This document shows positions 14,929-43,243 of a DNA stretch of 64,000 bases, in pieces; position 1 is the first letter of the stretch, and every line of letters starts with the position of its first letter. Origin of the DNA: Loktanella sp. 3ANDIMAR09 (GTDB lineage: Bacteria; Pseudomonadota; Alphaproteobacteria; Rhodobacterales; Rhodobacteraceae); the NCBI RefSeq assembly GCF_001420005.1, contig NZ_LJAK01000003.1, positions 310,001 through 374,000 on the forward strand, read 5' to 3'. Both the position numbers and the translations under genes were made by a program. The notes below the pieces were generated by a model that saw only the letters and a list, made by a program, of their open reading frames with translations, made no database searches and was not told the DNA's origin.

Positions 14929-14951
14929 CCAAATTTTCTGCGAAAATTTGG
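14929..14951. repeat. TTTT-core hairpin C1 (CTGCG loop)
   Basis: Left arm CCAAATTTT, loop CTGCG, right arm AAAATTTGG: a perfect 9-bp stem. It is the first of two hairpins in the cobH-cobL gap. Confidence 0.85.
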
Positions 14952-14952
14952 A

Positions 14953-14975
14953 CCGGATTTTCGCAGAAAATCCGG
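14953..14975. repeat. TTTT-core hairpin C2 (CGCAG loop)
   Basis: Left arm CCGGATTTT, loop CGCAG, right arm AAAATCCGG. It lies one base after C1 and ends 8 nt before the cobL start. The 23-bp unit is repeated exactly at 18767-18789. Confidence 0.88.
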
Positions 14976-14983
14976 GGCCCCCG

Positions 14984-16186
14984 ATGAACACGCCCTGGCT
15001 GCATATCGTGGGGATCGGCGAGGACGGCCTGGATGGGCTGGTGCCCGCGACCCGCGCGGTCGTCGAGGCCGCAGAGGTGATCCTGGGCGGAGAGCGTCAC
15101 CACGCGCTGTCTGAAGGGATCACCGCCGAGCGACTGGGCTGGCCGTCCCCGTTCGATGCGATGATCGACACGATCCGGGGGCTGCGCGGACGGCGGGCGG
15201 TTGTGCTGGTGACCGGTGATCCGCTGTGGTTTTCGGTGGGCGCACGGATCGGGCGTGCGATCGACCCGTCCGAGATTGTCTATCATCCGCAGCTGTCGGC
15301 CTTTCAGCTGGCCGCGGCCCGCATGGGGTGGAGCCTGGCTGACGTCGAAACCCTGACGGTACACGGGCGGCCCGTAAGCCAGATGGTGGCGTTCATCCAG
15401 CCTGACGCGCGGCTGCTGATCCTGACAACTGGCGCCGAGACGCCAGCGCAGATTGCAGAATTTCTGACGGCGCGCGGCTTCGGGCAGTCGCGGATGACCG
15501 TGCTGGCGGCCATGGGTGGCAAGGACGAGGCACGCTTCGACGGTCTCGCCGCGCATTGGGATCATGTGGTCCCGGCGTTCAACACGCTGGCCGTGGAATG
15601 TATCGCTGCCCCCGACGCGGCCCTCTTGCCGCGGGTGCCGGGGCTGGACGATACACTGTTCCAATCCGACGGCACGATGACGAAGCAAGAGGTACGTGCC
15701 GCGACGCTGGCCAAGCTGATGCCGATGCGCGGTGCGCTGCTGTGGGATATCGGCTGCGGGTCGGGATCGGTCGCGATCGAATGGATGCGCGCGGCCCGCT
15801 ACGCCCGCGCCATCGGGATCGAACCGCGTGACGACCGGCGCGCGATGGCAGGGGCAAACGCCCTTGCCCTGGGCGCACCCCGGTTGGAATTGATCGAAGG
15901 CACCGCACCTGCTGCATTGGACGGACTAGCCCCGCCTGATGCGATTTTCATCGGTGGCGGTTTGTCCGAGGAGGTCTTTGCCGCGGCCTGGGCTGCGCTG
16001 CGGCCGCTGGGGCGTCTGGTCGCCAATGCTGTGACACTGGAATCAGAGGCGGTCTTGATGGCGCTGCACGCGCGGCACGGTGGCGATCTGGTGCGGCTGT
16101 CGGTTTGCCGGGCGGAGCCCGTGGGGCGGCTGACCGGATGGCGACCCGCGATGCCCGTGACACAATGGAGCTTGGTAAAGCGATGA
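14984..16186 (+). CDS. cobL: Precorrin-6Y C5,C15-methyltransferase, decarboxylating (CobL = CbiE-CbiT fusion)
   Basis: Methylates C-5 and C-15 and decarboxylates the C-12 acetate during corrin synthesis. In the 400 residues, 1-200 are CbiE (WLHIVGIGEDGLDGLVPATR, TGDPLWFSVG) and 230-400 are CbiT (GALLWDIGCGSGSVAIEWMRAA, the SAM-binding motif; IFIGGGLSEEV). Start ATG 14984 (MNTPWLHIVGIGEDG) fits the family; an upstream in-frame start would run through the hairpins. The hairpin pair C1/C2 directly precedes it and may mask or present the start. Confidence 0.95.
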   Translation: MNTPWLHIVGIGEDGLDGLVPATRAVVEAAEVILGGERHHALSEGITAERLGWPSPFDAMIDTIRGLRGRRAVVLVTGDPLWFSVGARIGRAIDPSEIVYHPQLSAFQLAAARMGWSLADVETLTVHGRPVSQMVAFIQPDARLLILTTGAETPAQIAEFLTARGFGQSRMTVLAAMGGKDEARFDGLAAHWDHVVPAFNTLAVECIAAPDAALLPRVPGLDDTLFQSDGTMTKQEVRAATLAKLMPMRGALLWDIGCGSGSVAIEWMRAARYARAIGIEPRDDRRAMAGANALALGAPRLELIEGTAPAALDGLAPPDAIFIGGGLSEEVFAAAWAALRPLGRLVANAVTLESEAVLMALHARHGGDLVRLSVCRAEPVGRLTGWRPAMPVTQWSLVKR

Positions 16187-16210
16187 TCGGGCTGTGGTGT
16201 GGGGGCGGGT

Positions 16211-16244
16211 GCCTCCGGCGGGAGTATTTCCGGCAAGATGATAC
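16211..16244 (+). repeat. Extragenic repeat, subtype A
   Basis: GCCTCCGGCGGGAGTATTTC followed by CGGCAAGATGATAC, in the cobL-cobI gap. The GGGGGG that follows (16245-16250) is the probable ribosome-binding site of cobI, so the repeat abuts the translation start signal. Confidence 0.8.
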
Positions 16245-16256
16245 GGGGGGCGTCGC

Positions 16257-16958
16257 GTGAGTGGCGTCCTTTATGGTGTCGGGCTGGGGCCGGGGGCACC
16301 GGATCTGATCACCCTGCGTGCGGCACGGTTGATCGGTGGCGCGCGGGTTGTGGCCTATCCGACACTGGCGGGCGGCCAGAGTTTCGCGCGGTCGATTGCG
16401 GCGGACCTGATTGCACCAGATGCGGTCGAGATTGTCATGGACGTGCCGATGAGCGTGGAGCGTGCCCCCGCGCAGGCGGCCTATGACGCGGGGGCCGCAC
16501 GGATTGCGGCGGCGCTGGAGGCCGGGGATGATGTGGTGTGTCTGTGTGAGGGGGATCCGTTTTTCTACGGGTCCTTCATGTATCTGTTCGCGCGGTTGTC
16601 GGGTCGGTTCCGGTGTGAGGTGGTGCCGGGTGTGACATCCGTCGCGGCCTGTGCTGCGCGCGCGGGGCGACCTCTGGTGGCACGCAACGAGCGTCTGACA
16701 GTGCTGCCCGGTCCGCTGCCCGAGGCTGAATTGCGCGACAGGATAGCGGGTGCGGAAAGTGTCGCGATCATGAAGGTCGGGCGGCATCTGGCCAAGATCC
16801 GCGACGTGATTGCCGGATTGGGGTTGCTGGACGCGGCGGTCTATGTGGAACGCGCGTCACTGCCCCAAGAGGTTGTTTGCCCGCTGGCGGAGGCACCGGA
16901 AACGGCCCCGTATTTTTCGATGATCTTGCTGACCAAAGGAGCCGATCCGTGGCTATAG
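16257..16958 (+). CDS. cobI: Precorrin-2 C20-methyltransferase (CobI/CbiL)
   Basis: SAM-dependent methylation of C-20 of precorrin-2 (or cobalt-factor II). 233 residues of the corrin/porphyrin methyltransferase fold: GVGLGPGAPDLITLRAARLI at the start, CEGDPFFYGSFMYLFARL and VVPGVTSVAACAARAGRPL in the middle. The GTG start at 16257 begins the conserved sequence. Its last 10 nt overlap the GTG start of the next gene. Which metal state the enzyme prefers cannot be read from sequence, though CbiX and CbiG nearby favour cobalt-containing substrates. Confidence 0.95.
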   Translation: MSGVLYGVGLGPGAPDLITLRAARLIGGARVVAYPTLAGGQSFARSIAADLIAPDAVEIVMDVPMSVERAPAQAAYDAGAARIAAALEAGDDVVCLCEGDPFFYGSFMYLFARLSGRFRCEVVPGVTSVAACAARAGRPLVARNERLTVLPGPLPEAELRDRIAGAESVAIMKVGRHLAKIRDVIAGLGLLDAAVYVERASLPQEVVCPLAEAPETAPYFSMILLTKGADPWL

Positions 16959-18766
16959 AACCGGTTGTTTTGGCGCTGTCGCGCTCTGGTGAGGCCGTGG
17001 CGCACCGGGTGGCGGCCGTCCTGGGCGCGCAGGTGCATGGGCGTGTGGACCGCGTTGATGTGGCGGATGCATTTTTCGACAATGCGCTGGATCACGCGCG
17101 AGATCTGTTCGCAGCCGGCGTGCCGGTGGTCGGTGTCTGTGCAAGCGGCATCCTGATCCGGGCGGTCGCACCCTTGTTGGCAGACAAGACCGCAGAGCCA
17201 CCCGTGGTGTCGGTCAGCGATGATGGTGCGGTTGTCGTGCCGTTGCTGGGTGGTCATCGCGGGGCGAACCGGCTGGCTGCGCGGATTGCAGAGGCTTTGG
17301 GGGCCGTGTCGGCGGTCACAACGGCGGGTGATGTGGCATCGGGCGTGGCACTGGATGCGCCGCCTGCAGGGTGGCGTCTGGTCAATCCAGCTGATGCCAA
17401 GGACGCGATGGCGGCGTTGCTGTCGGGTGGTGGAGCGCGGATCAAGGGGCCGGATGCGGCAACGGCGACCTGGCTTGCCGATTTGCCGGTGGGTGACGGC
17501 GTGACGATCACCTGCGGGACAGCCCCTGCATCAGACCTTGGCGGTCATCATCTGCATTTTGCCCCGCAGCGGTTTGCGCTGGGCGTGGGCTGCGCGCGCG
17601 ATTGTGCGGTGGCGGAACTGGGGGATCTGGTCCGTGGTGTTCTGGCAGACGCCGGGATCGCGCCAGAGGCGGTGGCCTGTGTCAACACGATCGGGTTGAA
17701 GGCGGACGAGCCTGCGATCCTCGCGCTTGCGCAGGAACTGGGCGTGCCGCTGCGGTTGTTCGGCGCCGATGCGCTGGAGGCGCAGACCCCGCGCCTGGCC
17801 AATCCGTCTGACGTGGTTTTTGCCGAGGTCGGCACCCACGGCGTCAGCGAGGCTGCGGCGCTGGCACAGGTCGGCGAGGCAGGTGCGCTGGTCGTGGAAA
17901 AGCGCAAGACGGCGATGGCGACCTGTGCGGTGGCGCAGGCGGATGTGCCGCTGGTCGCCTTGCAGGGGGCCGCGCGGGGGCGCTTGTCCATCGTCGGGAT
18001 CGGACCCGGGCAGGCGTCATGGCGCACACCAGAGGTCTCGCGGCTGGTGGCAGAGGCCGAAGAACTGGTGGGATACGGGTTGTATATCGACTTGCTGGGG
18101 CCGCTGGCCGTCGGCAAGGCGCGGTCGGATTTCCCGCTGGGCGGTGAAGAGGACCGGTGCCGCTATGCGCTGGAGCAGGCGGCCAAGGGCAAGAACGTGG
18201 CGCTGGTCTGTTCGGGCGATGCGGGCATCTATGCGATGGGTGCGCTGGTGTTCGAACTGCTGGACCGGGGGCCGGACCAGATGGGCGTGTCGGATGCGGC
18301 GCGGCGGGTGGAGGTCATATCCTCGCCCGGGGTGTCGGCGTTGCAGGGTGCTGCGGCGCGTGCGGGTGCGCCATTGGGGCATGATTTCTGCGCGATCTCC
18401 CTGTCGGACCTACTGACGCCGCGTGACGATATCCTGCGGCGCCTGCGCGCGGCGGCGACGGGCGATTTCGTCATTGCGTTCTACAATCCGGTGTCGCGGA
18501 CGCGGCGGACCCTGCTGGCCGAGGCGCGGTACATCCTGTTGCAGCACCGTCCGGCGGATACGCCGGTGATGCTGGCGACCTCATTGGGCCGACCCGAGGA
18601 GCATCTGCGCTACCGGCGGCTGGACGCGCTGGAGGTCGACGAGGTGGACATGCTGACCGTCGTGCTGGTCGGGTCGAGCAATTCGCGGCTGGCGCAACTG
18701 GGTGAGGGGCCGCGGATGTACACGCCGCGCGGCTATGCGCGCAAGATCGACGGTGATCTGGCGTGA
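16949..18766 (+). CDS. CbiG-CobJ fusion: cobalt-precorrin-5A hydrolase + precorrin-3B C17-methyltransferase
   Basis: A 605-residue bifunctional corrin enzyme. Residues about 1-120 are CbiG N-terminal (GVCASGILIRAVAPLLADK, LLGGHRGANRLAARIAEAL). Residues about 210-330 are the CbiG C-terminal/CobE part (FALGVGCARDCAVAELGDLV, TIGLKADEPAILALAQELGVPLRLF, VEKRKTAMAT). Residues about 345-600 are CobJ/CbiH (GRLSIVGIGPGQASWRTPE, CSGDAGIYAMGALVFE, FYNPVSRTRR). CbiG opens the delta-lactone and releases acetaldehyde; CobJ contracts the ring. I start at GTG 16949 because AAGGAG sits 8 nt upstream, although the open frame extends further into cobI. Confidence 0.93.
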   Translation: MAIEPVVLALSRSGEAVAHRVAAVLGAQVHGRVDRVDVADAFFDNALDHARDLFAAGVPVVGVCASGILIRAVAPLLADKTAEPPVVSVSDDGAVVVPLLGGHRGANRLAARIAEALGAVSAVTTAGDVASGVALDAPPAGWRLVNPADAKDAMAALLSGGGARIKGPDAATATWLADLPVGDGVTITCGTAPASDLGGHHLHFAPQRFALGVGCARDCAVAELGDLVRGVLADAGIAPEAVACVNTIGLKADEPAILALAQELGVPLRLFGADALEAQTPRLANPSDVVFAEVGTHGVSEAAALAQVGEAGALVVEKRKTAMATCAVAQADVPLVALQGAARGRLSIVGIGPGQASWRTPEVSRLVAEAEELVGYGLYIDLLGPLAVGKARSDFPLGGEEDRCRYALEQAAKGKNVALVCSGDAGIYAMGALVFELLDRGPDQMGVSDAARRVEVISSPGVSALQGAAARAGAPLGHDFCAISLSDLLTPRDDILRRLRAAATGDFVIAFYNPVSRTRRTLLAEARYILLQHRPADTPVMLATSLGRPEEHLRYRRLDALEVDEVDMLTVVLVGSSNSRLAQLGEGPRMYTPRGYARKIDGDLA

Positions 18767-18789
18767 CCGGATTTTCGCAGAAAATCCGG
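18767..18789. repeat. TTTT-core hairpin C3, identical to C2
   Basis: CCGGATTTT-CGCAG-AAAATCCGG starts immediately after the cbiG-cobJ stop codon. It is base-for-base the same as 14953-14975 and is followed directly by a subtype A repeat. Confidence 0.88.
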
Positions 18790-18823
18790 GCCTCCGGCGG
18801 GAGTATTTTGGGCAAGATGATAC
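18790..18823 (+). repeat. Extragenic repeat, subtype A
   Basis: GCCTCCGGCGGGAGTATTTT then GGGCAAGATGATAC, matching the copy at 16211 at nearly every base. It ends 13 nt before the cobM ATG, and AGGGG just after it can serve as ribosome-binding site. Confidence 0.8.
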
Positions 18824-18836
18824 AGGGGTGTGCGGC

Positions 18837-19610
18837 ATGACGGTTTATTTCATCGGGGCGGGGCCGGGCGATCCTGAATTGCTGACGTTGAAGGCTGCGC
18901 GATTGATCGGGGCTTGCCCGGTGTGTCTATACGCGGGTTCGCTGGTGCCCGAGGAAGTCGTGGCGATTGCGCCGGAGGGCGCGCGGGTCCTGGATACCGC
19001 ACCGATGACGCTGGAAGAGACCCATGCGGAGATCGTCGCGGCCCACGCGCGCGGCGCGGACGTAGCACGGGTGCATTCGGGTGATCCGTCGCTTTATGGT
19101 GCTATTGCGGAACAGATCCGGCGGTTGAAGGCGGATGGGATCGATTATGCCATCGTGCCGGGCGTGCCGGCCTATGCGGCCGCAGCGGCGGCGATGGGAA
19201 CGGAACTGACCGTGCCGGAGGTCGGCCAATCCATCGTTCTGACCCGCATGAGCATGAAGTCGACCGGCATGCCCGCTGGCGAGACCCTGGAGAACTTTGC
19301 CCGGACCGGGACCACGCTGGCGATCCACCTTGGTATCAGGGCATTGCGCGACATCGAACGGGTGCTGACCCCGCATTACGGTGCCGATTGTCCGGTGGCG
19401 GTCGTTTACCGCGCGTCCTGGCCCGATCAGCTGATTCTGCGCGGCACGCTGTCGGATATTCACGCACAGGTCCGCGCGGCCAAGATCACGCGCACGGCCC
19501 TGATCATGGTCGGCCCTGTGTTGGGCGCGCAACACGGGTTTCCGGACTCGGCGCTTTATGATGCGGCCAAACCCCATGTCCTGCGGCCTAAGGCGCGCAA
19601 GACGGGGTGA
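18837..19610 (+). CDS. cobM: Precorrin-4 C11-methyltransferase (CobM/CbiF)
   Basis: Methylates C-11 (precorrin-4 or its cobalt form). 257 residues: MTVYFIGAGPGDPELLTLKAARLI, CLYAGSLVPEEV, RVHSGDPSLYGAIAEQIRRL and the diagnostic RMSMKSTGMPAGE segment leave little doubt. Start ATG 18837 is where family similarity begins. Last gene of the plus-strand corrin run; a possible terminator hairpin follows at 19629. CobK, CobF and a CobG/CobZ are not in this window. Confidence 0.96.
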   Translation: MTVYFIGAGPGDPELLTLKAARLIGACPVCLYAGSLVPEEVVAIAPEGARVLDTAPMTLEETHAEIVAAHARGADVARVHSGDPSLYGAIAEQIRRLKADGIDYAIVPGVPAYAAAAAAMGTELTVPEVGQSIVLTRMSMKSTGMPAGETLENFARTGTTLAIHLGIRALRDIERVLTPHYGADCPVAVVYRASWPDQLILRGTLSDIHAQVRAAKITRTALIMVGPVLGAQHGFPDSALYDAAKPHVLRPKARKTG

Positions 19611-19628
19611 TCGTGCCGCAGGTGCAGT

Positions 19629-19647
19629 GCCGCATTGCGGCGGCTTT
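19629..19647 (+). terminator. Possible terminator after cobM
   Basis: GCCGC-ATT-GCGGC hairpin followed by GGCTTTT. The stem is only 5 bp, and alternative pairings with an upstream GCCGC (19615) exist. Confidence 0.4.
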
Positions 19648-19705
19648 TGTCACTTGAAATTTACCGGCAGCGCATAATCTTGTCTTGCAAGCAAGGGAGT
19701 GCGCC

Positions 19706-20056
19706 ATGAACGACATCCTACCAGACGCGATCCGCAAAGGTTTGCAGGAGGCCCGCCGCGTGTCATTGGACCGCGGGGAACGGCTGTGTGTGCACGACGG
19801 TGATGATGTCTATCGCATCCTGCGGTTCTGGCAGGATGGCATGGCGCTGGATGCCGGTGCCTGTGACAAACTGCGCGGCCGCGTCGATATCTACGATGGT
19901 GCGCGGCATCTGTATCAGGCGCTGATCCTTGGCGCGGATGTGACCGACGGCGAATGCCATTTCCGGTTCAAATGGCTGCATCCGGTTCGCCAGACCGCGG
20001 CGCTGGATTTCGAAAGCGAGTTGCGCGCGCCGGCGGGTCTGCTGACGCGCGCATGA
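19706..20056 (+). CDS. Hypothetical protein
   Basis: A 116-residue soluble protein with no signal or membrane segment: MNDILPDAIRKGLQEARRVS, then RGERLCVHDGDDVYRILRFWQDGMALDAG, and an ending LDFESELRAPAGLL. I do not recognise the family. GGGAG is well placed 6 nt before ATG 19706, which supports this start over an upstream TTG. The acidic/basic balance and codon use match the neighbours, so it is probably a genuine Rhodobacteraceae gene. Its stop lies 10 bp from the convergent MalY gene. Confidence 0.7.
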   Translation: MNDILPDAIRKGLQEARRVSLDRGERLCVHDGDDVYRILRFWQDGMALDAGACDKLRGRVDIYDGARHLYQALILGADVTDGECHFRFKWLHPVRQTAALDFESELRAPAGLLTRA

Positions 20057-20065
20057 TCTGCCGCA

Positions 20066-21235
20066 CTATTGAAGGTCGGCAAAGGCCTTTTGCAGGCGGC
20101 TGACCGCGTCCTCGATCTGGGCGCGGGGGGCGCCGATGTTGAAGCGCAGGAACTGACCGCCACCCTTGCCGAAGGTGGGTCCGTGATTTGCCGCGATCTG
20201 TGCGTCGTTCTGAACGCGTGACGTGAAATCGGCAGCGGACATGCCTGTCCCCGAAAAATCGACCCAGGCGAGGTAGGTCGATTCCAGCTGCATGCTGTGC
20301 ACACCGGGGATCGTGTTGACGCCTGCATCGAAAATCCGGCGGTTTTCGTCGAGATAGAGGCGGAGCGCATCGACCCATGCCGCACCCTCGGGCGAATAGG
20401 CGGCGGTGGTCATGAACAATCCGAAACTGTTGGGCGACATGCCAAGTGCTGCCATGCGCGCGGCAAATCGTGCGCGCAGGTCGGGATCGGCAATGATGAC
20501 GTTGCCGCCGTGGCTGCCCGCGATGTTGAAGGTCTTGGTCGCGGAGGTCATCATCACCAGCCGGTCGGCGATCCCGTCGATCTGCGTCATCGGGATATGG
20601 GTTTGCCCCGGGAACGTCAGGTCGTGGTGGATTTCGTCCGACAGCAGGATCAGTTCGTGCCGCTTGGCGAATGCGGCGACCGCCTGCAGTTCGGCGCGGG
20701 TCCAGACGCGGCCGCCGGGATTGTGCGGCGAGCAGAGGATCAGCATCCGTTCGGACCCGTCCATCTGGGCGTCCCAGCTGTCGAAATCCATCTCGTAGCG
20801 GCCGTCGATATTGGCCAGCTCGCATTCCACGACACGGCGCCCGGATGCGTTTATCACGCGGGCGAAGGCGTGGTAGACAGGCGTCATCAGCACCACGCCG
20901 TCCCCCGGTTTCGTAAATGCGTCAAGGCACATGGCCGTGCCGTTCACCAGGCCGTGGGTGGTAAAGATATGCGCAGGATCGACGGTCCAGCCGTGGCGTT
21001 CCGCCATCCACCAGCAGATCGCGGCGCGGTAGTCGGTTTCATCCCCGAAATAGCCGAACACCCCATGATCGACCATGTCGGTGACAGCCTTGCGGATGCA
21101 GTCGGGGGCCTGAAATTCCATGTCGGCGACCCACATCGCGATCCCGTCCTCACGCGAGACGCCGTAGATGTCCTCCATCGCGTCCCACTTGGCGCAGTGG
21201 GTGTTGCGGCGGTTGATCGGTGTGTCGAAATGCAT
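20066..21235 (-). CDS. MalY/PatB-type PLP C-S lyase (cystathionine beta-lyase-like)
   Basis: A 389-residue fold-type I aminotransferase. It begins FDTPINRRNTHCAKWD, characteristic of the MalY/PatB group, and has the PLP Lys in MMTSATKTFNIAGSHGGNVI, with LCSPHNPGGRVWT and LSDEIHHDL upstream of it. Members cleave cystathionine or other C-S substrates to pyruvate, ammonia and a thiol. The physiological substrate is unknown. It is alone on the minus strand and divergent from the deformylase cluster, with about 136 bp between starts. Confidence 0.92.
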   Translation of the reverse strand: MHFDTPINRRNTHCAKWDAMEDIYGVSREDGIAMWVADMEFQAPDCIRKAVTDMVDHGVFGYFGDETDYRAAICWWMAERHGWTVDPAHIFTTHGLVNGTAMCLDAFTKPGDGVVLMTPVYHAFARVINASGRRVVECELANIDGRYEMDFDSWDAQMDGSERMLILCSPHNPGGRVWTRAELQAVAAFAKRHELILLSDEIHHDLTFPGQTHIPMTQIDGIADRLVMMTSATKTFNIAGSHGGNVIIADPDLRARFAARMAALGMSPNSFGLFMTTAAYSPEGAAWVDALRLYLDENRRIFDAGVNTIPGVHSMQLESTYLAWVDFSGTGMSAADFTSRVQNDAQIAANHGPTFGKGGGQFLRFNIGAPRAQIEDAVSRLQKAFADLQ

Positions 21236-21371
21236 GGGACTGCCTCTTGCTGTGGTGGTGACAGGTTCGGGGTAGGGCGCGCCGGGTGCAAGGCGAAAAT
21301 GGTGCAGGTCAGCGGATGCACAGGCGGGGGGCGATGTTGCAAAAGCCGCAGGCCCGGCCTAATTGGGGCGC

Positions 21372-21893
21372 ATGACAATACGCCCCATTCTGATCCATCC
21401 CGACCCGCGCCTGAAAAAGGTGGCCGATCCCGTGACCGCGGTCGACGACGCCTTGCGTACACTGGCCGCCGACATGCTGGAAACCATGTATGACGCGCCC
21501 GGTATCGGCCTTGCAGCGCCGCAGGTCGGTGTGATGCAGCGCATCATCACCATGGATTGCGTCAAGGAAGAGGGCGAGGACCCACGCCCCATGGTCCTGA
21601 TCAACCCGCGCGTGACATGGGCAAGCGAGGAGACGAGCAGCTATGAGGAAGGCTGTCTGTCGATCCCCGAGCAATACGCCGATGTTGAACGCCCGGCAGA
21701 GGTCGAGGTCACATGGATGGACCTGGACGGTGCCACGCAGTCCGAACGGTTCGGCGGCCTGTGGGCCACCTGTGTGCAGCACGAGATCGACCATCTGGAT
21801 GGCAAGCTGTTCATCGACTACCTGGGGTCGATGAAACGCCAGATGATCACGCGCAAGATGCAGAAGCTGAAACGCGAACGGGCGCGGGCATGA
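21372..21893 (+). CDS. def: Peptide deformylase, complete active site
   Basis: Removes the N-formyl group from new proteins; iron- or zinc-dependent, cytoplasmic. The 173-residue protein has all three motifs: GIGLAAPQ (residue about 45), EEGCLS with the metal Cys, and QHEIDHLDG with the two metal His and catalytic Glu. ATG 21372 (MTIRPILIHPDPRLKKVADPV) fits the family. First of three tandem def-like genes; the stop shares bases with the next start (ATGATG at 21890). The essential deformylase in this organism is most likely this copy. Confidence 0.96.
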   Translation: MTIRPILIHPDPRLKKVADPVTAVDDALRTLAADMLETMYDAPGIGLAAPQVGVMQRIITMDCVKEEGEDPRPMVLINPRVTWASEETSSYEEGCLSIPEQYADVERPAEVEVTWMDLDGATQSERFGGLWATCVQHEIDHLDGKLFIDYLGSMKRQMITRKMQKLKRERARA

Positions 21894-22345
21894 TGCCGAT
21901 CTTGCAGGCCCCGCATCCGGGTCTGCGGGTGGTTTGTGCGCCGGTTGCGGATTTTGATGATGGCCTGCGGGCGCTGACCGATGCGATGTTCGCGGCGATG
22001 TACGATGCGCCGGGGCGCGGGCTGGCCGCACCGCAGGTCGGTGTGCTGTCGCGAGTGTTCGTCATGGATGCCACCTGGAAAGATGCAGAGCCGCGTCCGA
22101 TGGTGTTCGTGAACCCGCAGATCGTGGATCGATCCCGCGACATGGCCGCGATCAGCGAAAGCTGTCTGTCGATCCCCGATCAGCTGGTGTCAGTGTCGCG
22201 CCCGGCCTGGGTGACGTTGCGCTGGCAAGGGCTGGACGGTGTGGAACAGACAGACACGTTCAAGGGTGTGGAGGCGGTCATCGTGCAGCACGAACGCGAT
22301 CATCTGGACGGCATCCTGATCACCGATTACGCGGTGCAGGCGTGA
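21890..22345 (+). CDS. Peptide deformylase homologue, second copy with variant motif
   Basis: A 151-residue deformylase-like protein. Motif I reads GRGLAAPQ and motif III VQHERDHLDG, keeping His-Glu-x-x-His. Motif II is ESCLS instead of EGCLS, a Gly to Ser change beside the metal Cys. It also lacks the C-terminal basic helix seen in the first copy. Activity is plausible but may be altered. Start 21890 or 21893 (ATGATG), inside the end of def; the stop overlaps the third copy (GTGA). Confidence 0.9.
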   Translation: MMPILQAPHPGLRVVCAPVADFDDGLRALTDAMFAAMYDAPGRGLAAPQVGVLSRVFVMDATWKDAEPRPMVFVNPQIVDRSRDMAAISESCLSIPDQLVSVSRPAWVTLRWQGLDGVEQTDTFKGVEAVIVQHERDHLDGILITDYAVQA

Positions 22346-22836
22346 CCCGGACGGTTGTGCGCTGGCCGCATAAGGCGCTGCGGACCCCCGCGGCCGATGT
22401 GCCTGACATCACCGATGACATTCGCAGCATCTGGGACGACATGATCGCCGTGATGGAGGCGATGCCCGGCGTTGGACTGGCCGCCGTGCAGCTGGGTATC
22501 CCGCTGCGGCTGGCGGTCGTGGACGCCAGCACAGCGCGGGGGCAGGCCGTGCGCATGGCCAACCCCGAGATCCTGCACGCGAGCGTGGAGCTGCGGGACC
22601 ACGAGGAGGCTTCGCCCTGCCTGCCGGGTGTAAGTGCCGTGGTCAAACGCCCGCGAGCGGTGACGGTGCGGTTTCTGAACGCGGATGGCGCGGTGGAAGA
22701 GCGCGATTTCGTCAGCCTCTGGGCCACGAGCGTGCAGCACCAGATCGACCACCTGGCGGGGCGGATGTATTTCGACCGGCTGGGCCGGGTCAAACGGGAC
22801 ATGCTGCTGAAACGTGCGGCCAAGCTGGGACGTTAG
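22342..22836 (+). CDS. Degenerate peptide deformylase homologue lacking the catalytic Glu
   Basis: 164 residues clearly of deformylase descent: GVGLAAVQLG (normally GIGLAAPQ), EASPCLPG (normally EGCLS) and VQHQIDHLAG. The catalytic Glu of HExxH is Gln134 between His133 and His137, and motif II has an insertion. Classical deformylase activity is therefore not expected. The frame is intact and the C-terminal tail DRLGRVKRDMLLKRAAKLGR resembles that of the first copy, so the gene appears maintained. GTG start at 22342, coupled to copy two. Confidence 0.9.
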   Translation: MTRTVVRWPHKALRTPAADVPDITDDIRSIWDDMIAVMEAMPGVGLAAVQLGIPLRLAVVDASTARGQAVRMANPEILHASVELRDHEEASPCLPGVSAVVKRPRAVTVRFLNADGAVEERDFVSLWATSVQHQIDHLAGRMYFDRLGRVKRDMLLKRAAKLGR

Positions 22837-22840
22837 CGGT

Positions 22841-22894
22841 GGGGGCGCTGCCCCCGGCTACGCCTCCCCCGGAGTATTTTTGGCAAGATGATGC
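22841..22894 (+). repeat. Extragenic hairpin plus subtype A repeat
   Basis: GGGGGC-GCT-GCCCCC hairpin (22841-22855), a short spacer, then CTCCCCCGGAGTATTTTTGG followed by CAAGATGATGC (to 22894). It lies between the convergent third def homologue and trpA. It could act as a bidirectional transcription end, though there is no T-tract after the GC hairpin. Confidence 0.8.
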
Positions 22895-22897
22895 GGA

Positions 22898-23689
22898 TCA
22901 GCCGCGGTGACAGCCGTCGGCCAGCGATTTGACGAAGGCGAGCACGTCGGCCACGCTTTCTCCGGCACCGATTTTTTCAACGATGGCAGAGCCTACGACA
23001 GCACCGTCGGCGATGCTGGCGATGGATTCCGCGGCCTCGGGCGTCTTGATGCCAAAGCCCACGATCACGGGCAGGTCGGTGTGCGATTTGATGCGCGCGA
23101 CCTCGGGGGCGACATCGGCGGATTGGGCCTCGGCGGTGCCGGTGATGCCGGTGACCGACACGTAGTAGACGAAACCGGAGGTGTTTGTCAGCACCTTTGG
23201 CAGGCGTTTGTCATCTGTCGTGGGCGTGGCGAGCCGGATGAAATTCAGTCCGGCCTTTTGCGCGGGAATGCAGAGTTCGTCGTCCTCCTCTGGAGGCAGA
23301 TCGACGATGATGAGACCGTCGATCCCCGCCTCACGGGCCTGGGCGAGAAATGTATCCACGCCGCGCGAATAGATCGGGTTGTAATAGCCCATCATCACGA
23401 TCGGGGTGGTGTCATCGGTCTGCCGCAGGGTGCGGGCGATTTCCAGCGTCTTGTCCAAGGTCATGTGCTGGGCCAATGCGCGCTGACCCGCCAGCTGGAT
23501 CGTGGTGCCGTCGGCCATCGGGTCGGTGAACGGCAACCCCAGTTCGATGATGTCGACGCCGGCAGCCGGCAGGCCCTGCACGATTTCGAGAGAGGTTTCG
23601 AAGGTCGGGTCACCGGCCATGACATAGGCGACGAAGGCCTTGCGGTTCTGAGCGCGGAGCTGGGCGAATTTGGCGTCGATCCGGGACAT
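22898..23689 (-). CDS. trpA: Tryptophan synthase alpha subunit
   Basis: Cleaves indole-3-glycerol phosphate to indole and glyceraldehyde-3-phosphate, in complex with TrpB. The 263 residues include [17 protein letters not shown] (with the catalytic Glu and phosphate-site neighbours), [12 protein letters not shown] with the catalytic Asp and [12 protein letters not shown]. Full length for the family. trpB is not adjacent; the upstream neighbour is the small membrane protein on the other strand. Confidence 0.96.
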
Positions 23690-23792
23690 GTGGCAGGCTC
23701 CTGTAGCGGGGTCGCGGATTACTGCCAGCGCGGGGCGCGGTTTGCAATGGGGCAGGGGGTGAAATGACGCGGAAGGGGCCTATGTGTGATCC

Positions 23793-23978
23793 ATGAATTA
23801 TTTGCTCGCCTTGTTGCTCCCGCCTCTTTCGATCCTGCTGGCCGGTCGGCCATTCATCGGGATCATCGTGTTTTTCATCTGGATCCCGGCACTGCTGTTT
23901 TCGGGCGGCCTGACGCACCCGATGTTCATCATCCTGGCCTGGTTGCTGATCTACGAGGGACGCAATCGCGCGGCCTGA
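23793..23978 (+). CDS. Small two-segment membrane protein, YqaE/Pmp3-like
   Basis: A 61-residue hydrophobic protein (MNYLLALLLPPLSILLAGRPF, then IGIIVFFIWIPALLFSGGL and a third hydrophobic stretch). The PP-x-x-L in the first segment and overall size resemble the UPF0057/Pmp3 proteolipids involved in membrane potential and salt stress, but similarity is limited and the C-terminus (LAWLLIYEGRNRAA) differs. It lies 104 bp from the divergent trpA start and 62 bp before ychF. Confidence 0.65.
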   Translation: MNYLLALLLPPLSILLAGRPFIGIIVFFIWIPALLFSGGLTHPMFIILAWLLIYEGRNRAA

Positions 23979-24040
23979 CCTCTTGAGTCTGCCACCGGGG
24001 ACGACTAGACGCGCGGGTGCACGGTCACAGGAGATGCGTC

Positions 24041-25138
24041 ATGGGCTTTAAGATGGGAATTGTCGGTCTGCCGAACGTCGGTAAATCGACCCTGTTCAAC
24101 GCGCTGACGCGCACGGCGGCCGCGCAGGCCGCGAATTTCCCGTTTTGCACGATCGAGCCGAACGTCGGTGATGTGGCGGTGCCTGACGCGCGGCTGGACA
24201 CGCTGGCCCGGATCGCAGGGTCCAAGCAGATCATCCCGACGCGCATGACCTTTGTCGATATCGCTGGACTGGTGAAGGGCGCATCCAAGGGCGAGGGGCT
24301 GGGGAACCAGTTCCTGGCCAATATCCGTGAATGCGATGCCATTGCGCATGTGCTGCGGTGTTTCGAGGATGACGACATCACCCACGTCGAGGGACGGGTC
24401 GATCCGGTCGAGGATGCGGCCGTGATCGAGACCGAACTGATGCTGGCAGACTTGGAGAGCATCGAAAAGCGTCTGGCGGGCCTTGTGCGCAAGGTGCGCG
24501 GTGGCGACAAGGAGGCGGTTCAGCAAGAGCGCCTGCTGAAGGCCGCGCAGGAAGTGCTGGAAGACGGACGGCCCGCACGGGTGGTCGCGGTTGACGCTGA
24601 TGATGCCAAGGCGTGGCGGATGCTGCAATTGCTGACGACGAAACCCGTCCTCTATGTCTGCAACGTCGAGGAAGACAGTGCGGGTGCCGGCAACAGCCAG
24701 TCCGCGCGTGTGGCCGAAATGGCGGCGGCGCAGGGCAACAGCCACGTTGTGATCTCGGCCCGGATCGAGGAAGAGATCAGCCAGCTGGAGGCCGAGGAAG
24801 CCGAGATGTTCCTGTCCGAGATGGGGCTGGACGAGGCGGGTCTGGACCGGTTGATCCGGGCGGGCTACGCGTTGCTGCATCTTCAGACCTATTTTACGGT
24901 CGGTCCCAAGGAGGCGCGCGCCTGGACGATTCCGGAAGGCACTTCTGCGCCCAAGGCGGCGGGCGTCATCCATGGCGATTTCGAGCGCGGCTTCATTCGG
25001 GCCGAGACCATCGCCTATGACGATTTCGTGGCCCTTGGGGGGGAACAGCCCGCCAAGGAAGCAGGCAAGATGCGTGCAGAAGGCAAGTCCTATGTCGTCA
25101 AGGACGGCGACGTGCTGCATTTCCTGTTCAACACCTGA
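24041..25138 (+). CDS. ychF: Redox-regulated OBG-family ATPase YchF
   Basis: A 365-residue P-loop ATPase that binds the ribosome and responds to oxidative stress. GIVGLPNVGKSTLFNALT is Walker A, NFPFCTIEPNVG the switch, FVDIAGLVKGASKGEGLGNQFL the DxxG region. The Asn of the usual NKxD specificity motif sits in VCNVEE, as expected for YchF rather than a GTPase. A C-terminal TGS domain (TYFTVGPKEARAW, VVKDGDVLHFLFN) completes it. ATG 24041 with GGAG upstream fits the family. Confidence 0.97.
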   Translation: MGFKMGIVGLPNVGKSTLFNALTRTAAAQAANFPFCTIEPNVGDVAVPDARLDTLARIAGSKQIIPTRMTFVDIAGLVKGASKGEGLGNQFLANIRECDAIAHVLRCFEDDDITHVEGRVDPVEDAAVIETELMLADLESIEKRLAGLVRKVRGGDKEAVQQERLLKAAQEVLEDGRPARVVAVDADDAKAWRMLQLLTTKPVLYVCNVEEDSAGAGNSQSARVAEMAAAQGNSHVVISARIEEEISQLEAEEAEMFLSEMGLDEAGLDRLIRAGYALLHLQTYFTVGPKEARAWTIPEGTSAPKAAGVIHGDFERGFIRAETIAYDDFVALGGEQPAKEAGKMRAEGKSYVVKDGDVLHFLFNT

Positions 25139-25148
25139 TGTCGGCGAT

Positions 25149-25174
25149 GTCAGGATTTTCGCGAAAATCCTGAC
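25149..25174. repeat. TTTT-core palindrome C4 (26 bp)
   Basis: Perfect self-complementary 26-bp palindrome centred on ATTTTCGCGAAAAT, outer arms GTCAGG and CCTGAC. It lies 10 nt after the ychF stop. Confidence 0.88.
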
Positions 25175-25178
25175 GGGG

Positions 25179-25200
25179 CCGATTTTTCGCGAAAAATCGG
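25179..25200. repeat. TTTT-core palindrome C5 (22 bp)
   Basis: Perfect palindrome with core TTTTTCGCGAAAAA and arms CCGA/TCGG. It is separated from C4 by only 4 nt, so two hairpins stand side by side. Confidence 0.88.
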
Positions 25201-25248
25201 GTGGGGGCGCTGCCCCCACGCCCCTGGGATATTTCTAACCAGAAGAAG
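25201..25248 (+). repeat. Extragenic hairpin plus subtype B repeat
   Basis: GTGGGGGC-GCT-GCCCCCAC hairpin (25201-25219) followed by CCCCTGGGATATTTCTAACC then AGAAGAAG (25221-25248). The stop codon of the minus-strand udgX gene (25235-25237) and its last four codons lie inside the subtype B block, so the repeat supplies the end of that protein. Confidence 0.8.
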
Positions 25249-38372: not shown

Positions 38373-38420
38373 GGGCGCAGATGTGCCTCCAATGCCCTGC
38401 AGGCACAAGCCCGCATGGTG

Positions 38421-39167: not shown

Positions 39168-39188
39168 TCGGTTCTGGCCCGCGATACG

Positions 39189-39215
39189 AAAGGCCGCCCC
39201 TTGGGGCGGCCTTTT
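39189..39215 (+). terminator. Rho-independent terminator of rpsD
   Basis: AAAGGCCGCCCC-TT-GGGGCGGCCTTTT: a 12-bp perfect stem with a 2-nt loop, closing A/T pairs and a T-run. Confidence 0.9.
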
Positions 39216-39324
39216 GCGTTTATCGGTATGTCCTTTCGCGGTGCGCCACCGGCCTTATTATTGGACGGGCACCGTCAGCGCCCGTAGGGTTTCCCTGTTC
39301 AAAGACAAAAGGGATCGGTGTGAA

Positions 39325-39978
39325 GTGACGAAGCCGGACGTATTGAATACGGACTTTATCTTGCGCGACGAGGCGGAGCTGCGGCAGTTGTTTGCCCCGA
39401 CGCATGATATCGCGATCAAGAAAAGTTTGAACCATTTGGACAAACATGCGCGCGCGTTCATTGAACGGTCGCCATTCATCTGCATTGGCACACAGTCGAG
39501 TAACGGCGCGGCAGATGTCAGTCCGCGCGGCGACCCTCCCGGTTTCGTCAAGGTGCATGACGACCGAACGTTGCTGATCCCTGACCGTCCGGGCAACAAC
39601 CGTCTTGATACTTTGACGAACATCATGACCAACGGTCATATTGGCCTGCTTTTTATCGTGCCCGGTTTCGACGACACGCTGCGCGTCAATGGCACAGCCG
39701 TCGTCACGCGGGACCCCGACCTAATGGTGCAGATGGCCGTGAATGATCGGACACCGACCGTTGCGATTGCTATCAGCGTCGATGAGGTTTTCATTCATTG
39801 TGCCAAAGCGTTCCGGCGCGCGAAGCTGTGGAGTCCCGATGCGCAGCAGGATCGAGGTGATGTTCCATCGTTGATGAATATCATCCTCGACCAGACGACA
39901 GGGGCACCAAAGGATCCAGAGCAACTGGCCAAGCTCGATCAAGACCTTGAGGCGGAGTATCGACAGACGATGTACTGA
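39325..39978 (+). CDS. Pyridoxamine 5'-phosphate oxidase-family FMN protein (MSMEG_1061-like)
   Basis: A 217-residue flavoprotein of the split-barrel PPOX group. FICIGTQSSNGAADVSPRGDPPGFVKVHDDRTLLIPDRPGNNRLDTLTNIMTNGHIGLLFIVPG is the FMN-binding core, and HCAKAFRRAKLW near residue 155 fits the MSMEG_1061 subfamily. Substrate unknown. I use GTG 39325 (TKPDVLNTDFI) since the upstream part of the frame is Arg/Tyr-rich and non-conserved. It seems less GC-biased than its neighbours, which might reflect recent transfer. Confidence 0.82.
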   Translation: MTKPDVLNTDFILRDEAELRQLFAPTHDIAIKKSLNHLDKHARAFIERSPFICIGTQSSNGAADVSPRGDPPGFVKVHDDRTLLIPDRPGNNRLDTLTNIMTNGHIGLLFIVPGFDDTLRVNGTAVVTRDPDLMVQMAVNDRTPTVAIAISVDEVFIHCAKAFRRAKLWSPDAQQDRGDVPSLMNIILDQTTGAPKDPEQLAKLDQDLEAEYRQTMY

Positions 39979-40041
39979 TGGCTGTGTCGCAAATCGGTAT
40001 GGGCAATCTATGCCGATGTCAGAACGCGACAACGTGAAGGA

Positions 40042-40057
40042 CCGCCCAACAGGGCGG
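40042..40057. terminator. GC-rich hairpin between convergent genes
   Basis: CCGCCC-AACA-GGGCGG lies 63 bp after the PPOX stop and 18 bp beyond the sorbosone-type gene's stop. No T-run on either side, so only a possible terminator. Confidence 0.45.
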
Positions 40058-40074
40058 CCCGAGTGTCATGCGAT

Positions 40075-41466: not shown

Positions 41467-41596
41467 CGGATCCAAATTTTCTGTTTGTTTGCAATCGTGG
41501 ACCAACGCTTCGTAGCCACATCAGTTCCGGCACGGTCGAGAGAGGCGTTTCGCATGCCGCCTTTCGTCCGGATCGCAGGCGGGCTAGCAAGGCAGC

Positions 41597-43186
41597 ATGA
41601 GCAAACCGAATATCGTGATGATCCTGGCCGACCACGTGGCGTTTCACGGCCACTACGGGTCCGACCGTTATCCGTACCGCTGGCCGCACCTTGACCGGAT
41701 CGCAGGGCAGGGGGTGTGGTGCGATCAGGCGCGCTGCATCACGCCTGTTTGCACGCCGTCGCGCGCCAGTTTTTTGACCGGCAAGCGGCCCGATAAACAC
41801 GGGTTGCGCTGGAACAGCGAATACCCGATCCCGCACAACCGCCGTGATTTCCGCGACGACGAGGTGCTGTATCCGGCCTACCTCGCGCAGGCGGGCTATG
41901 TAAATCACTACTACGGGAAATGGCACTGCGGCGTGAACAAGACCGCCGCCGATTACGGTCTGACGGGGTGGAGCCTGCCGGAATACGGCAACCTCTATGC
42001 CTCTGACCGGTACAAGGCCTATCTGGCCGCGCGTGGTCTGGAACAGCCCCGCTGCCGGATCGACCATCACCTGCTGCGGCCGGAGCTGGACGGCACGACG
42101 GTCCTGATGGACCCCGAAGAGCCGTGGGACTTCATGGACGGGGCGGGCGTGCTGCTGGGCGATCCCGCGGCGCAGGAACAGAATTTCGTCGCCAATATCG
42201 CCGCCGACGCGATCCGTGATCTCGCGCGCGGGGACGATCCGTTCAGCATGGTGATCAGCCTGTGGGGGCCGCATCATCCCTATTACCCGTCCGAAGAATT
42301 TGCAGCGCTCATCAACCCCGCCGACATTCCGCCCTATCCCAGCTTTGCCGAGGATCTGTCGGACAAGCCGTGGCGTTACCGCGTACAGCGCGATCTGCGG
42401 TGTCAGCACAGGGCCGGTGAACGCTGGCCGGACTGGGGCATCTGGCAGACCGTGCTGGCGCGGGCCTATGCGGCCGGGTTGCAGACGGATGCGGCGATCG
42501 GGCGGATTGCGGATGTATTGGAGGCCGAAGGGATTGCCGACAACACGCTGTTCATCGTCACCGCCGATCATGGCGATGGGCTGGCCGCCCACGGTGCAGG
42601 CTGGGACAAATACAGCAGCTTCAGCGAAGAGGTCGCGCGTATTCCACTGGTCATGCGCTGGCCTGACGGACTGCCCGCCGGTGCCGCGATCAGCGATCCG
42701 GTCACGTTGCTGGACGTGACCGCCACGATGATCGACGCAGCCGGCGCGCCGGTAGACTTGCATCCGCTGGGGCTGGACGGTGACAGCCTGTTGCCGATGG
42801 CGCGGGGGGCAGCGCGGCGCGCGGCGTTGATCTGCGATCATTTCGGCCATTCCGGCGATATCGCGTTCCAGAAGATCCTGTATCTGGACGGGTGGAAATA
42901 CGTCTGTTGCTGGGGCGACGGGGATGAGCTGTACGATCTGACCGCCGATCCGTTTGAGCTGGACAACCGGGTGAATGATCCCGCGACCATCGACCGCCAG
43001 CACGTGATGCGCGACCGGATCATGGCGCATCTGGAGACACGCCGCGCCGCGCGGTCCACGTGGACGCCGGCCGCATTCTGGGAGGACGGGATCGTGTTCT
43101 CCTCGCCTGAATGGCCGCGCGAAGAAACGCTGCTGTTGTACAAGCTGCGCAGTCTTCAGGCCGATCCCGACTATCGCCCCGGCTGA
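41597..43186 (+). CDS. Sulfatase-family hydrolase
   Basis: A 529-residue alkaline-phosphatase-superfamily enzyme. NIVMILADHVAFHGHYGSD gives the first metal Asp. VCTPSRASFLTGKRP holds Cys52 in C-T-P-S-R, the position converted to formylglycine in type I sulfatases. TADHGDGLAAHGAGWDKYSSFSEEVARIPLVM provides later metal ligands. Substrate (sulfated sugar, choline-sulfate or phosphonate ester) is unknown. No sulfatase-maturing radical SAM gene is adjacent. Two TTTT-core palindromes follow it. Confidence 0.9.
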   Translation: MSKPNIVMILADHVAFHGHYGSDRYPYRWPHLDRIAGQGVWCDQARCITPVCTPSRASFLTGKRPDKHGLRWNSEYPIPHNRRDFRDDEVLYPAYLAQAGYVNHYYGKWHCGVNKTAADYGLTGWSLPEYGNLYASDRYKAYLAARGLEQPRCRIDHHLLRPELDGTTVLMDPEEPWDFMDGAGVLLGDPAAQEQNFVANIAADAIRDLARGDDPFSMVISLWGPHHPYYPSEEFAALINPADIPPYPSFAEDLSDKPWRYRVQRDLRCQHRAGERWPDWGIWQTVLARAYAAGLQTDAAIGRIADVLEAEGIADNTLFIVTADHGDGLAAHGAGWDKYSSFSEEVARIPLVMRWPDGLPAGAAISDPVTLLDVTATMIDAAGAPVDLHPLGLDGDSLLPMARGAARRAALICDHFGHSGDIAFQKILYLDGWKYVCCWGDGDELYDLTADPFELDNRVNDPATIDRQHVMRDRIMAHLETRRAARSTWTPAAFWEDGIVFSSPEWPREETLLLYKLRSLQADPDYRPG

Positions 43187-43194
43187 TTACGGGC

Positions 43195-43216
43195 CCTGTT
43201 TTTCGCGAAAAACAGG
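43195..43216. repeat. TTTT-core palindrome C6 (22 bp)
   Basis: Perfect palindrome: arms CCTG/CAGG around TTTTTCGCGAAAAA, starting 9 nt after the sulfatase stop. Confidence 0.88.
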
Positions 43217-43223
43217 ACGGCCA

Positions 43224-43243
43224 CCCATTTTCGCGAAAATGGG
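43224..43243. repeat. TTTT-core palindrome C7 (20 bp)
   Basis: CCCATTTTCGCGAAAATGGG, perfect palindrome, 7 nt after C6. Together they make another back-to-back hairpin pair. Confidence 0.88.

Follow-up and report, generated by a model that had tools for sequence, protein, structure and literature searches.

Dispersed hairpins at gene ends in Rhodobacteraceae and a candidate cognate protein of about 76 amino acids

Hairpins of the window and their copies in the genome

We analysed seven hairpins in a window of 64 kb (the whole stretch of DNA under study) from a genome of the Rhodobacteraceae, which is referred to below as G000. The hairpins, none of which was assigned to a strand, are as follows.

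14929..14951, no strand: hairpin CCAAATTTTC-TGC-GAAAATTTGG, 6 nt past the stop of the plus-strand gene 14284-14922
14953..14975, no strand: hairpin CCGGATTTTC-GCA-GAAAATCCGG, 8 nt upstream of the start of the plus-strand gene 14984-16186 (CbiE-type, by similarity)
18767..18789, no strand: single hairpin, abutting the TGA of the plus-strand gene 16949-18766 (CbiG and TP_methylase domains)
25149..25174, no strand: hairpin GTCAGGATTTTCGCGAAAATCCTGAC, 10 nt past the stop of the plus-strand gene 24041-25138 (YchF-type GTPase)
25179..25200, no strand: second hairpin of the 25149 pair, 34 nt from the stop of the convergent minus-strand gene 25235-26665 (DUF4130 and UDG domains)
43195..43216, no strand: hairpin CCTGTTTTTCGCGAAAAACAGG, 8 nt past the stop of the plus-strand gene 41597-43186 (sulfatase domain)
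43224..43243, no strand: second hairpin CCCATTTTCGCGAAAATGGG, 7 nt beyond the first and preceding the plus-strand gene 43364-44419

All seven were found, with perfect arms, where a preliminary description of this DNA had placed them. As it had noted, six stand in back-to-back pairs 1-7 nt apart (the gaps inside the three pairs are 1, 4 and 7 nt), and one is identical to another, namely 14953 to 18767; the loop of 14953 is the inverted version of that of 14929. In the window, no Rfam family matched above its gathering score. The half-site GAAAA[AT]TCGG, counted in the window alone as a check for a DNA uptake sequence, occurs three times, once outside the hairpins.

The preliminary description had named few copies genome-wide, mostly mismatched arms and no intergenic enrichment as outcomes that would speak against a family, and we found the opposite of each. 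G000 contains 41 copies of TTTTCGCGAAAA and 10 of TTTTCGCAGAAAA, with none of either reversed control, and the broader pattern TTTTCN0-6GAAAA gives 97 matches per strand versus 11. A typical copy is a palindrome of 22-23 nt, of which 10 bp form the stem and 2-3 nt the loop, and copies often come as doublets. Over the 51 cores, 241 of 255 outer-arm positions are paired, and 41 copies are perfect in all five arm pairs, compared to a mean of 6.3 and a maximum of 14 in shuffles. One core (L052) has no arms, is probably a chance occurrence and was omitted from the gene-context count, in which 32 of 34 sites are intergenic; at the other two, one of them the 18767 site, a predicted gene start lies over the hairpin. 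It should be noted that gene contexts come from a simple gene finder based on codon usage; it was trained on the window and is less reliable for other genera.

The hairpins mostly stand close behind stop codons: at 23 of the 34 sites a stop is no more than 15 nt away, and many sites are 0-10 nt downstream of it, whereas 12% of the intergenic bases of the window are as close to a stop (the distances at L004 and L008 were assigned by hand, as the distance to the preceding stop). The neighbouring genes are convergent at 15 sites, tandem at 15 and divergent at two, with an uncertain gene start at two more; in several convergent pairs, each stop codon is abutted by its own hairpin. Exact-core doublets in G000 (n=11) have a core-to-core distance of 28 bp in nine cases and 29 bp in two.

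These properties could suggest intrinsic terminators, which we rejected for lack of a U-tract: at least four T within the 10 nt after the hairpin occur in one of 51 copies (three of 51 on the opposite strand), and where TTTT occurs within 15 nt (10 of 51), it belongs to the left arm of another hairpin. A terminator scan of positions 13000-27000 gave 10 candidates versus 8.9 in shuffles. One composite terminator-like case (25219-25195) involves hairpin 25179, the T-run of which comes after a GC-rich stem on the minus strand. The earlier conclusion that these are not plain terminators thus stands, whereas the reason offered for it, gene orientation, is weak because terminators also occur between convergent and tandem genes.

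Conservation of pairing and variation among species

We found 25 cells changed on both sides, versus 6.7 after shuffling, with a covariation score of 0.366 versus 0.092. Pairing, rather than arm sequence, is conserved, as had been proposed from the seven hairpins of the window, and selection keeps the arms paired. The core, originally described as fixed, is not so everywhere: the loop differs between species (GC/GCA, TA, AA/TT, GTA/TAC and GTC/GAC), and covariation extends to the upper stem in two of the copies inspected (L030 and L058). Mismatches on the sense strand (three U.G versus one A.C and three others) are thin wobble evidence for RNA.

In a comparison of G000 with the sister species G297, substitutions were found at 8 of 460 arm positions (1.7%), 173 of 2469 positions in the intergenic flanks (7.0%) and 21 of 183 positions in the spacers (11.5%). 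This comparison covers 30 aligned sites of 34: L005, L007 and L058 have no G297 stretch, and L054 was skipped due to a long insertion; the armless L052 was not among the 34. Most G297 stretches were retrieved via the core, so that core conservation is biased, while arm conservation is unaffected by this choice. A hairpin is present at every compared G297 site, once as a fused hybrid, and therefore no recent movement is seen. For example, hairpin 14929 has an identical copy in G297, and the G295 version has the loop GTC. A hairpin of this type is absent at the orthologous place in G301 (for 14929) and in G299 (for 25149), and in other members of the genus the 18767 site carries hairpin-like sequences that, as judged by eye, are unrelated. 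Only two G000 sites were also found in other genera; so few shared sites fit mobility as well as a regulon.

Outside the family, a class-wide search of 385 genomes (five of them Rhodobacteraceae) revealed no genome approaching counts of 20-79. The highest totals, with controls in parentheses, are 12 (7) in G588, 11 (12) in G682 and 10 (1) in G669, followed by 9 in G507 (6), G609 (5) and G705 (0); G669 and G705 exceed their own controls. Among the matches listed, a Roseovarius look-alike, with a fixed motif of ~60 bp that contains two TTTCGCGAAA, was put aside as a different family. A viral origin was rejected as well: the exact doublet and CCGATTTTTCNNGAAAAATCGG have no viral matches and a second pattern matches one viral contig. 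Among viral sequences, 54 stretches fit the peptide pattern of the small protein described below, and none of them encodes a relative.

A small-protein gene with its own hairpins

The companion gene, which lies outside the 64-kb window, encodes a protein of ~76 amino acids with invariant W, F, R, R, G, R and C. This protein is common, with homologues in 160 of the 394 Rhodobacteraceae genomes searched, yet 29 members compared to Pfam, NCBIfam, PHROGs and PDB sequences yielded no convincing relative. A homologue at L153 is broken by a stop. At E up to 5, the Pfam list comprises four unrelated families (best E 0.1) and does not include DUF1127, and one member had a weak Alba-like NCBIfam match (E 0.048). 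We recognised neither a domain nor a catalytic motif. The 29 members have a net charge of +1 to +8; this mildly basic charge and the motif tracking presented below are the grounds for proposing nucleic-acid binding.

Within 90 nt behind the stop of the small-protein gene, at least one hairpin was found in 63 of 70 genes and at least two in 48. By the same criterion, the corresponding numbers are 7 and 0 for 90 other genes of the same loci, and 4.1% and 0.06% in shuffles; two hairpins follow 6 of 64 genes of the window, which had been chosen for its hairpins. The 70 genes, from 59 genomes (11 are second copies), comprise the 30 best, 20 of the next and 20 lower or second copies, picked among the matches listed; in L348, L353 and L357 a stop lies inside the match, and the 90 nt were counted from the first stop. 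Seven genes have no hairpin by this criterion; in one of the seven, L333, a doublet lies within a reading frame that is extended. The gene beyond the doublet differs among G000, G393 and G159, suggesting that the doublet and the small gene stay together.

In 24 of 48 cases, the two loops behind one gene are either identical or complements of each other, compared to 6.5% between genes. A second copy of the small gene has a different apical motif in five of nine genomes (G306, G319, G350, G393 and G377); in G020 both copies have the same loop, and no hairpin follows the second copy in G159, G061 or G232. The motif class tracks the protein tree, requiring 15 changes versus 25.2 after shuffling (minimum 19; n=63).

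Ten genomes were compared for their dispersed loops: in six, the most frequent one is the loop of the small gene's own hairpins, and in the other four it is not. Among other cores or rows, it accounts for 39 of 49 in G000, 39 of 60 in G319, 26 of 38 in G086, 12 of 20 in G306, 4 of 4 in G274 and 20 of 23 in G393 (for which 25 of 30 rows were listed). Four genomes agree poorly: G241 (3 of 10 listed rows), G181 (3 of 8), G390 (2 of 5) and G200 (0 of 4). The comparison was made by eye on listed rows, own-gene rows being removed for G000, G393, G319, G086 and G306, and the argument is carried by the best-sampled genomes. The small gene is present in 22 of 24 high-copy genomes (all except G207 and G356) versus 138 of 370 others; the high-copy set, i.e., genomes with at least nine pattern matches, was compiled by eye with a cut-off picked after inspection of the table. 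Motif tracking and the association with copy number could reflect common descent.

Interpretation and relation to known repeats

The explanation we favour, with a probability of about one half, is a dispersed family of 3'-end hairpins with a cognate small protein, forming a post-transcriptional regulon. The protein would bind the apical part (TTTTC-loop-GAAAA in G000) of the hairpins, both at the 3' end of its own mRNA and in the dispersed copies, and these copies together would constitute the regulon. The hairpins themselves may be RNA structures of gene ends that form a barrier to 3'-5' exonucleases or terminating ribosomes, or a boundary between convergent transcripts. For a hairpin family that is REPIN-like in layout, we infer binding by the small protein and function at mRNA 3' ends.

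The pairing of the ~76-aa protein with the hairpins suggests a hitherto unnoticed system. Tentatively, and at slightly less than even odds, it could comprise two components: a family of ~76-aa proteins, unlike any known family, that reads the tips of its own twin 3'-UTR hairpins, with private codes for many paralogues, and hairpins that in some lineages were copied close behind the stop codons of dozens of genes as a regulon (or, with the tiny non-transposase protein, as a REPIN-like replicator). If so, either the REPIN-type partnership of palindrome and protein arose again around a tiny, unrelated protein, or small hairpin-binding proteins can bring many genes under their control when the hairpin they bind is spread to gene ends. 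Several paralogue/hairpin codes within one bacterial family make both ideas testable.

The literature searched on palindromic repeats, REP/RAYT, terminators and small RNA-binding proteins (mostly non-subscription papers) yielded no account of the element. The preliminary statement that no named element fits holds insofar as neither a RAYT gene nor a GTAG/CGTC tag was found in G000, while the hairpins are laid out as REP/REPIN repeats are. GTAG- and CGTC-tagged REPs are 20-40-bp palindromes that form dimers between unidirectional or convergent, rather than divergent, genes, an arrangement shared by our hairpins; the CGTC type is reported mainly from alphaproteobacteria (available part of PMC3733652), and the main text of that paper does not mention Rhodobacter, Roseobacter or Paracoccus. 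Unlike tagged REPs, the 51 copies have no conserved unpaired word beyond arm position 5 on either side. In CIN1 of the related bacterium Rhodobacter sphaeroides, CcaF1, an RNA-binding DUF1127 protein, is co-transcribed with the CcsR1-4 RNAs directly downstream (as described in the portion of PMC10253847 available), a small-protein gene followed by repeated elements being the shared feature; in contrast, our protein has no DUF1127 match, the loops are 2-3 nt long, and the hairpins are dispersed genome-wide.

A less probable alternative is a REPIN-like mobile element, in which the inverted doublet is non-autonomous DNA that the small protein, either by itself or together with a host enzyme, would recognise and move as a folded single strand, gene ends being where insertions are tolerated. 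REPIN/RAYT systems of Pseudomonas and E. coli consist of dispersed inverted doublets with the cognate gene beside its own doublet (according to the available part of PMC3116915), and our family shares the inverted palindromes between genes, the gene beside its own doublet, an apparent source locus as in RAYTs, and several specificities per genome. Doublets were inverted in 23 cases, direct in three and of unlike loops in seven (41 with palindromic loops are uninformative), and one polarity prevails (TAC>GTA 7:1, TGC>GCA 6:0, GTC>GAC 4:1). One two-hairpin composite of CCGAG-type and CCTGA-type arms recurs at several places in G319. The species-typical loops and the hairpins missing in G301 and G299 also favour mobility. 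The unrelated partner, the AT-rich 10-bp stems, the covarying arms and the location mostly directly behind stop codons are unlike REPINs. On the other hand, the small protein has no recognised catalytic motif. The RAYT-type Y1 transposase (PF01797) was found in 38 of 394 Rhodobacteraceae genomes and, within the high-copy set, only in G241 and G356; with no match in the other 22 of 24, including G000, RAYT-driven REPs are not supported. Stasis relative to G297, purifying selection on the arms, and spacers and flanks that are dissimilar among the G000 copies argue against movement as well.

It is rather improbable that the hairpins are protein-independent structures of mRNA 3' ends (stabilisers, tandem terminators without U-tract, or ribosome-stalling hairpins), with the small gene merely another user. 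In E. coli, REPs that lie no more than 15 nt from a stop have been reported to stall ribosomes (RepRanger paper, available part of PMC12306157), to which our hairpins are similar in position and not in sequence; 446 of 4,072 E. coli REPs are that close, in contrast to 23 of 34 sites here. The many sites 0-10 nt past a stop and the unrelated hairpin-like sequences at the 18767 site would suit such structures, which leave unexplained the dominance of a single loop per species, the differences between species, and the small gene's near-constant hairpins and loop match. Finally, a double-stranded DNA operator or nucleoid-protein site, consistent with the perfect dyad symmetry, the one dominant core in one species and the 28-bp phasing of doublets, is very improbable given that the outer arms vary while their pairing is kept and that two of 34 sites lie between divergent genes, where promoters sit.

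Selection on hairpin pairing

All seven palindromes that the preliminary description had reported in the window were recovered by a script, at the same places and with perfect arms; the gaps inside the three pairs are 1, 4, and 7 nt. These hairpins, i.e., a TTTTC-loop-GAAAA core with outer arms, recur in the source genome (G000; 3.67 Mb, 34 contigs; other G numbers denote compared genomes, and L numbers their loci): TTTTCGCGAAAA was found 41 times and TTTTCGCAGAAAA 10 times, compared to zero for the reversed controls, and TTTTCN0-6GAAAA gave 97 matches per strand versus 11 for the control. There are 11 exact-core doublets (adjacent hairpins), with a core-to-core distance of 28 bp in nine and 29 bp in two.

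Pairing was counted in all 51 cores, chosen without regard to the arms, at five arm positions (255 cells). Outer arms pair in 241 cells, compared to a mean of 159 and a maximum of 180 when right arms were randomly reassigned (10,000 times), and 41 of the 51 copies have perfect arms (6.3 on average and at most 14 in the random sets). The 41 GC-loop copies, 20 of them distinct, have 18 distinct left arms; at the sixth arm position only 6 of 41 pair, thus the hairpin unit is 22-23 nt with ten base pairs. In these copies, 25 cells are changed on both sides versus 6.7 after shuffling, and the covariation score is 0.366 versus 0.092 when partners were shuffled and no more than 0.068 when they were slid. 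Across the 30 sites aligned with the sister species (G297), 8/460 arm positions are changed (1.7%), compared to 173/2469 other intergenic positions (7.0%), 21/183 positions of the spacers between hairpins (11.5%), and 1521/21,555 coding positions (7.1%). Because the arms differ between sites, yet stay conserved in each orthologue, the pairing is under selection, and the earlier claim that pairing rather than arm sequence is conserved holds. At one site of the sister species (L016/L060), a 28-bp deletion between two cores left a mismatched hybrid.

Gene ends and orthologous sites

Flanking genes at 34 G000 sites are tandem in 15 cases, convergent in 15, and divergent in 2; at the remaining two, including 18767 (window coordinate), the gene finder set a gene start over the hairpin. 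A stop codon lies within 15 nt at 23 of the 34 sites (two of the 23 were set by hand), compared to 12% of the intergenic bases of the window, which serve as a rough null (binomial P = 4.5e-14). Several convergent gene pairs have one hairpin directly adjoining each stop. A T-rich tail follows just 1 of the 51 copies (3 of 51 on the other strand); therefore, as had been proposed, the hairpins are not ordinary intrinsic terminators. At 25219-25195 (minus strand), a GC-rich stem continues into the T-run of the palindrome. Recurrent GGGGGCGCTGCCCC..GATATTT-like and CCTCCGGCGGGAGTATTT elements found beside some hairpins (L012, L034, L041, L047, L049, and L054) are perhaps the real terminators.

The 14929 site carries in G295 a doublet with loops GTC and GGC, other arms, and two T-G wobbles in the first hairpin; G006 retains one hairpin and G299 a remnant, no hairpin of this type was found there in G298, G300, or G301, and G296 was not placeable. 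At the 18767 site, inspection by eye revealed a long, GC-rich inverted repeat of unrelated sequence (GACGGTG...CACCGTC) after the stop codon in G295, G301, and G300 (L217, L221, and L222), and another hairpin-like sequence at the same place in G298 (L219). The interval between the genes flanking one hairpin site is ~800 bp longer in G297 (L226 versus L054).

The hairpin family and a small-protein gene

A survey of 394 Rhodobacteraceae genomes with TTTTCN2-3GAAAANNNGG, in both directions, found the pattern abundant in a minority (79 matches in G000, 61 in G319, 47 in G006, 40 in G086, 31 in G070, and 30 in G393), compared to mostly 0-3 for the control. Among 385 genomes from across the class, the counts outside Rhodobacteraceae fell far short of these (highest 12, control 7); G669 (10 matches, control 1) and G705 (9, control 0), from other alphaproteobacterial families, exceed their controls. 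The commonest loop is species-typical: AA/TT in G086, GTA/TAC in G393, GTC/GAC followed by GC in G319, and GCA/TGC in G306. Doublets with informative loops are inverted in 23 cases, direct in 3, and unlike in 7, 41 further doublets being uninformative on orientation due to a palindromic loop; polarity runs mostly one way (TAC>GTA 7:1, TGC>GCA 6:0, GTC>GAC 4:1). A single hairpin of this type, with loop GCC, lies on a predicted viral contig (L306:12727-12747).

When hairpin-adjacent genes were compared across genera, one 76-aa gene recurred beside a doublet in G000, G393, and G159, and the gene on the far side of the doublet differs among the three; a doublet also occupies the CysS-type/HMGL-type gene junction in G000 as well as in Yoonia ponticola. 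The small protein has 75-80 residues and a net charge of +1 to +8; its profile, A2, found matches in 160 of the 394 Rhodobacteraceae genomes, and W13, F18, R30, R31, G41, R52, and C67 are invariant in 29 members. Database comparisons gave no credible match: the best E was 0.1 in Pfam, 0.0088 in NCBIfam (a HAD-IIA hydrolase model; Alba for one member, E 0.048), and 0.13 for PDB sequences, and in PHROGs a single member matched a DNA methyltransferase family at E 0.0017.

We looked for 10-bp hairpins in the 90 nt after the stop codon of 70 small-protein genes from 59 genomes; at least one was found for 63 genes and at least two for 48. The same criterion gave 7/90 and 0/90 for other genes in the same loci, and 20/64 and 6/64 for genes of the window, a stretch that had been selected for its hairpins; mononucleotide shuffles gave 4.1% and 0.06%. 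Where a gene has two hairpins, their loops are identical or complementary in 24 of 48 cases, versus 6.5% between genes, and the outer six bases agree in 1 of the 48. The hairpins are thus linked to the small-protein gene. The gene is present in 22 of 24 genomes with at least nine pattern matches versus 138 of the remaining 370 (Fisher P = 1e-7, kinship ignored); it was not found in G207 and G356, which belong to the former group.

Motif class requires 15 changes on the protein tree (n = 63), compared to 25.2 after shuffling (minimum 19 in 2000 shuffles). Second gene copies were examined in nine genomes: the apical motif differs between copies in G306 (TTTTC-TGC/GCA-GAAAA, CTTCGTACGAAG, and TTCTTCGAAGAA), G319, G350, G393, and G377, the two copies in G020 have a common loop, and the second copy is without a hairpin in G159, G061, and G232. 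Leaving out the gene's own doublet, its loop is found in 39/49 dispersed cores of G000, in 4/4 dispersed hairpins of G274, and, among the rows listed, in 20/23 for G393, 39/60 for G319, 26/38 for G086, and 12/20 for G306; the match is poor in G241 (3/10), G181 (3/8), G390 (2/5), and G200 (0/4), again among the rows listed. A homologue broken by an in-frame TAG is found in an uncultured Roseovarius (L153:5571-5786, minus strand). Many of L313-L342 have TTAACC (in some TTTACC or similar) ~20-30 nt upstream of the small-protein start, a word that we take to be reminiscent of a CtrA half-site.

Proposed recognition, possible replication, and other repeats

Recognition by the small protein would be directed at the apical part of each hairpin; this would account for a tip that is nearly uniform within a genome and arms that are free. 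It would most likely take place on mRNA, because the sites lie at gene 3' ends and divergent regions are avoided. The sense strand has three U.G wobbles versus one A.C and three other mismatches, which is only a hint of RNA-level pairing. Such recognition would be expected to affect convergent read-through, the release of ribosomes, or how stable mRNA 3' ends are.

The main alternative is that the doublets are a REPIN-like replicator. Their layout is the same as in the REPIN/RAYT description (PMC3116915); however, RAYT, the Y1 transposase of such systems, was found neither in G000 nor in 22 of the 24 high-copy genomes. The two readings are compatible, since a doublet that was mobile may have been co-opted. 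A hairpin-binding small protein would work much like REPIN/RAYT, and the system recalls the CIN1 locus of R. sphaeroides. No description of the element was found in the mostly open-access literature on REP/RAYT, Rhodobacterales palindromes, 3' UTRs, and small RNA-binding proteins, and there is a fair chance that the system is a kind of its own.

Roseovarius has a different dispersed family with a fixed ~60-bp motif, agcggagcactgcgTTTCGCGAAAatctgtgattcaggttTTTCGCGAAAcgctttag (L092, L093, L097, and other loci), whose arms lack covariation; among the matches listed, it is repeated many times in Roseovarius sp. MMSF_3281 and R. litoreus and also occurs in Pelagivirga and a Loktanella MAG. A perfect, operator-like palindrome, ATGTTTCGCATGCGAAACAT, is seen at two places of G000 and one of G297 (window 7383-7402; L045:3274-3293; L076:3298-3317).
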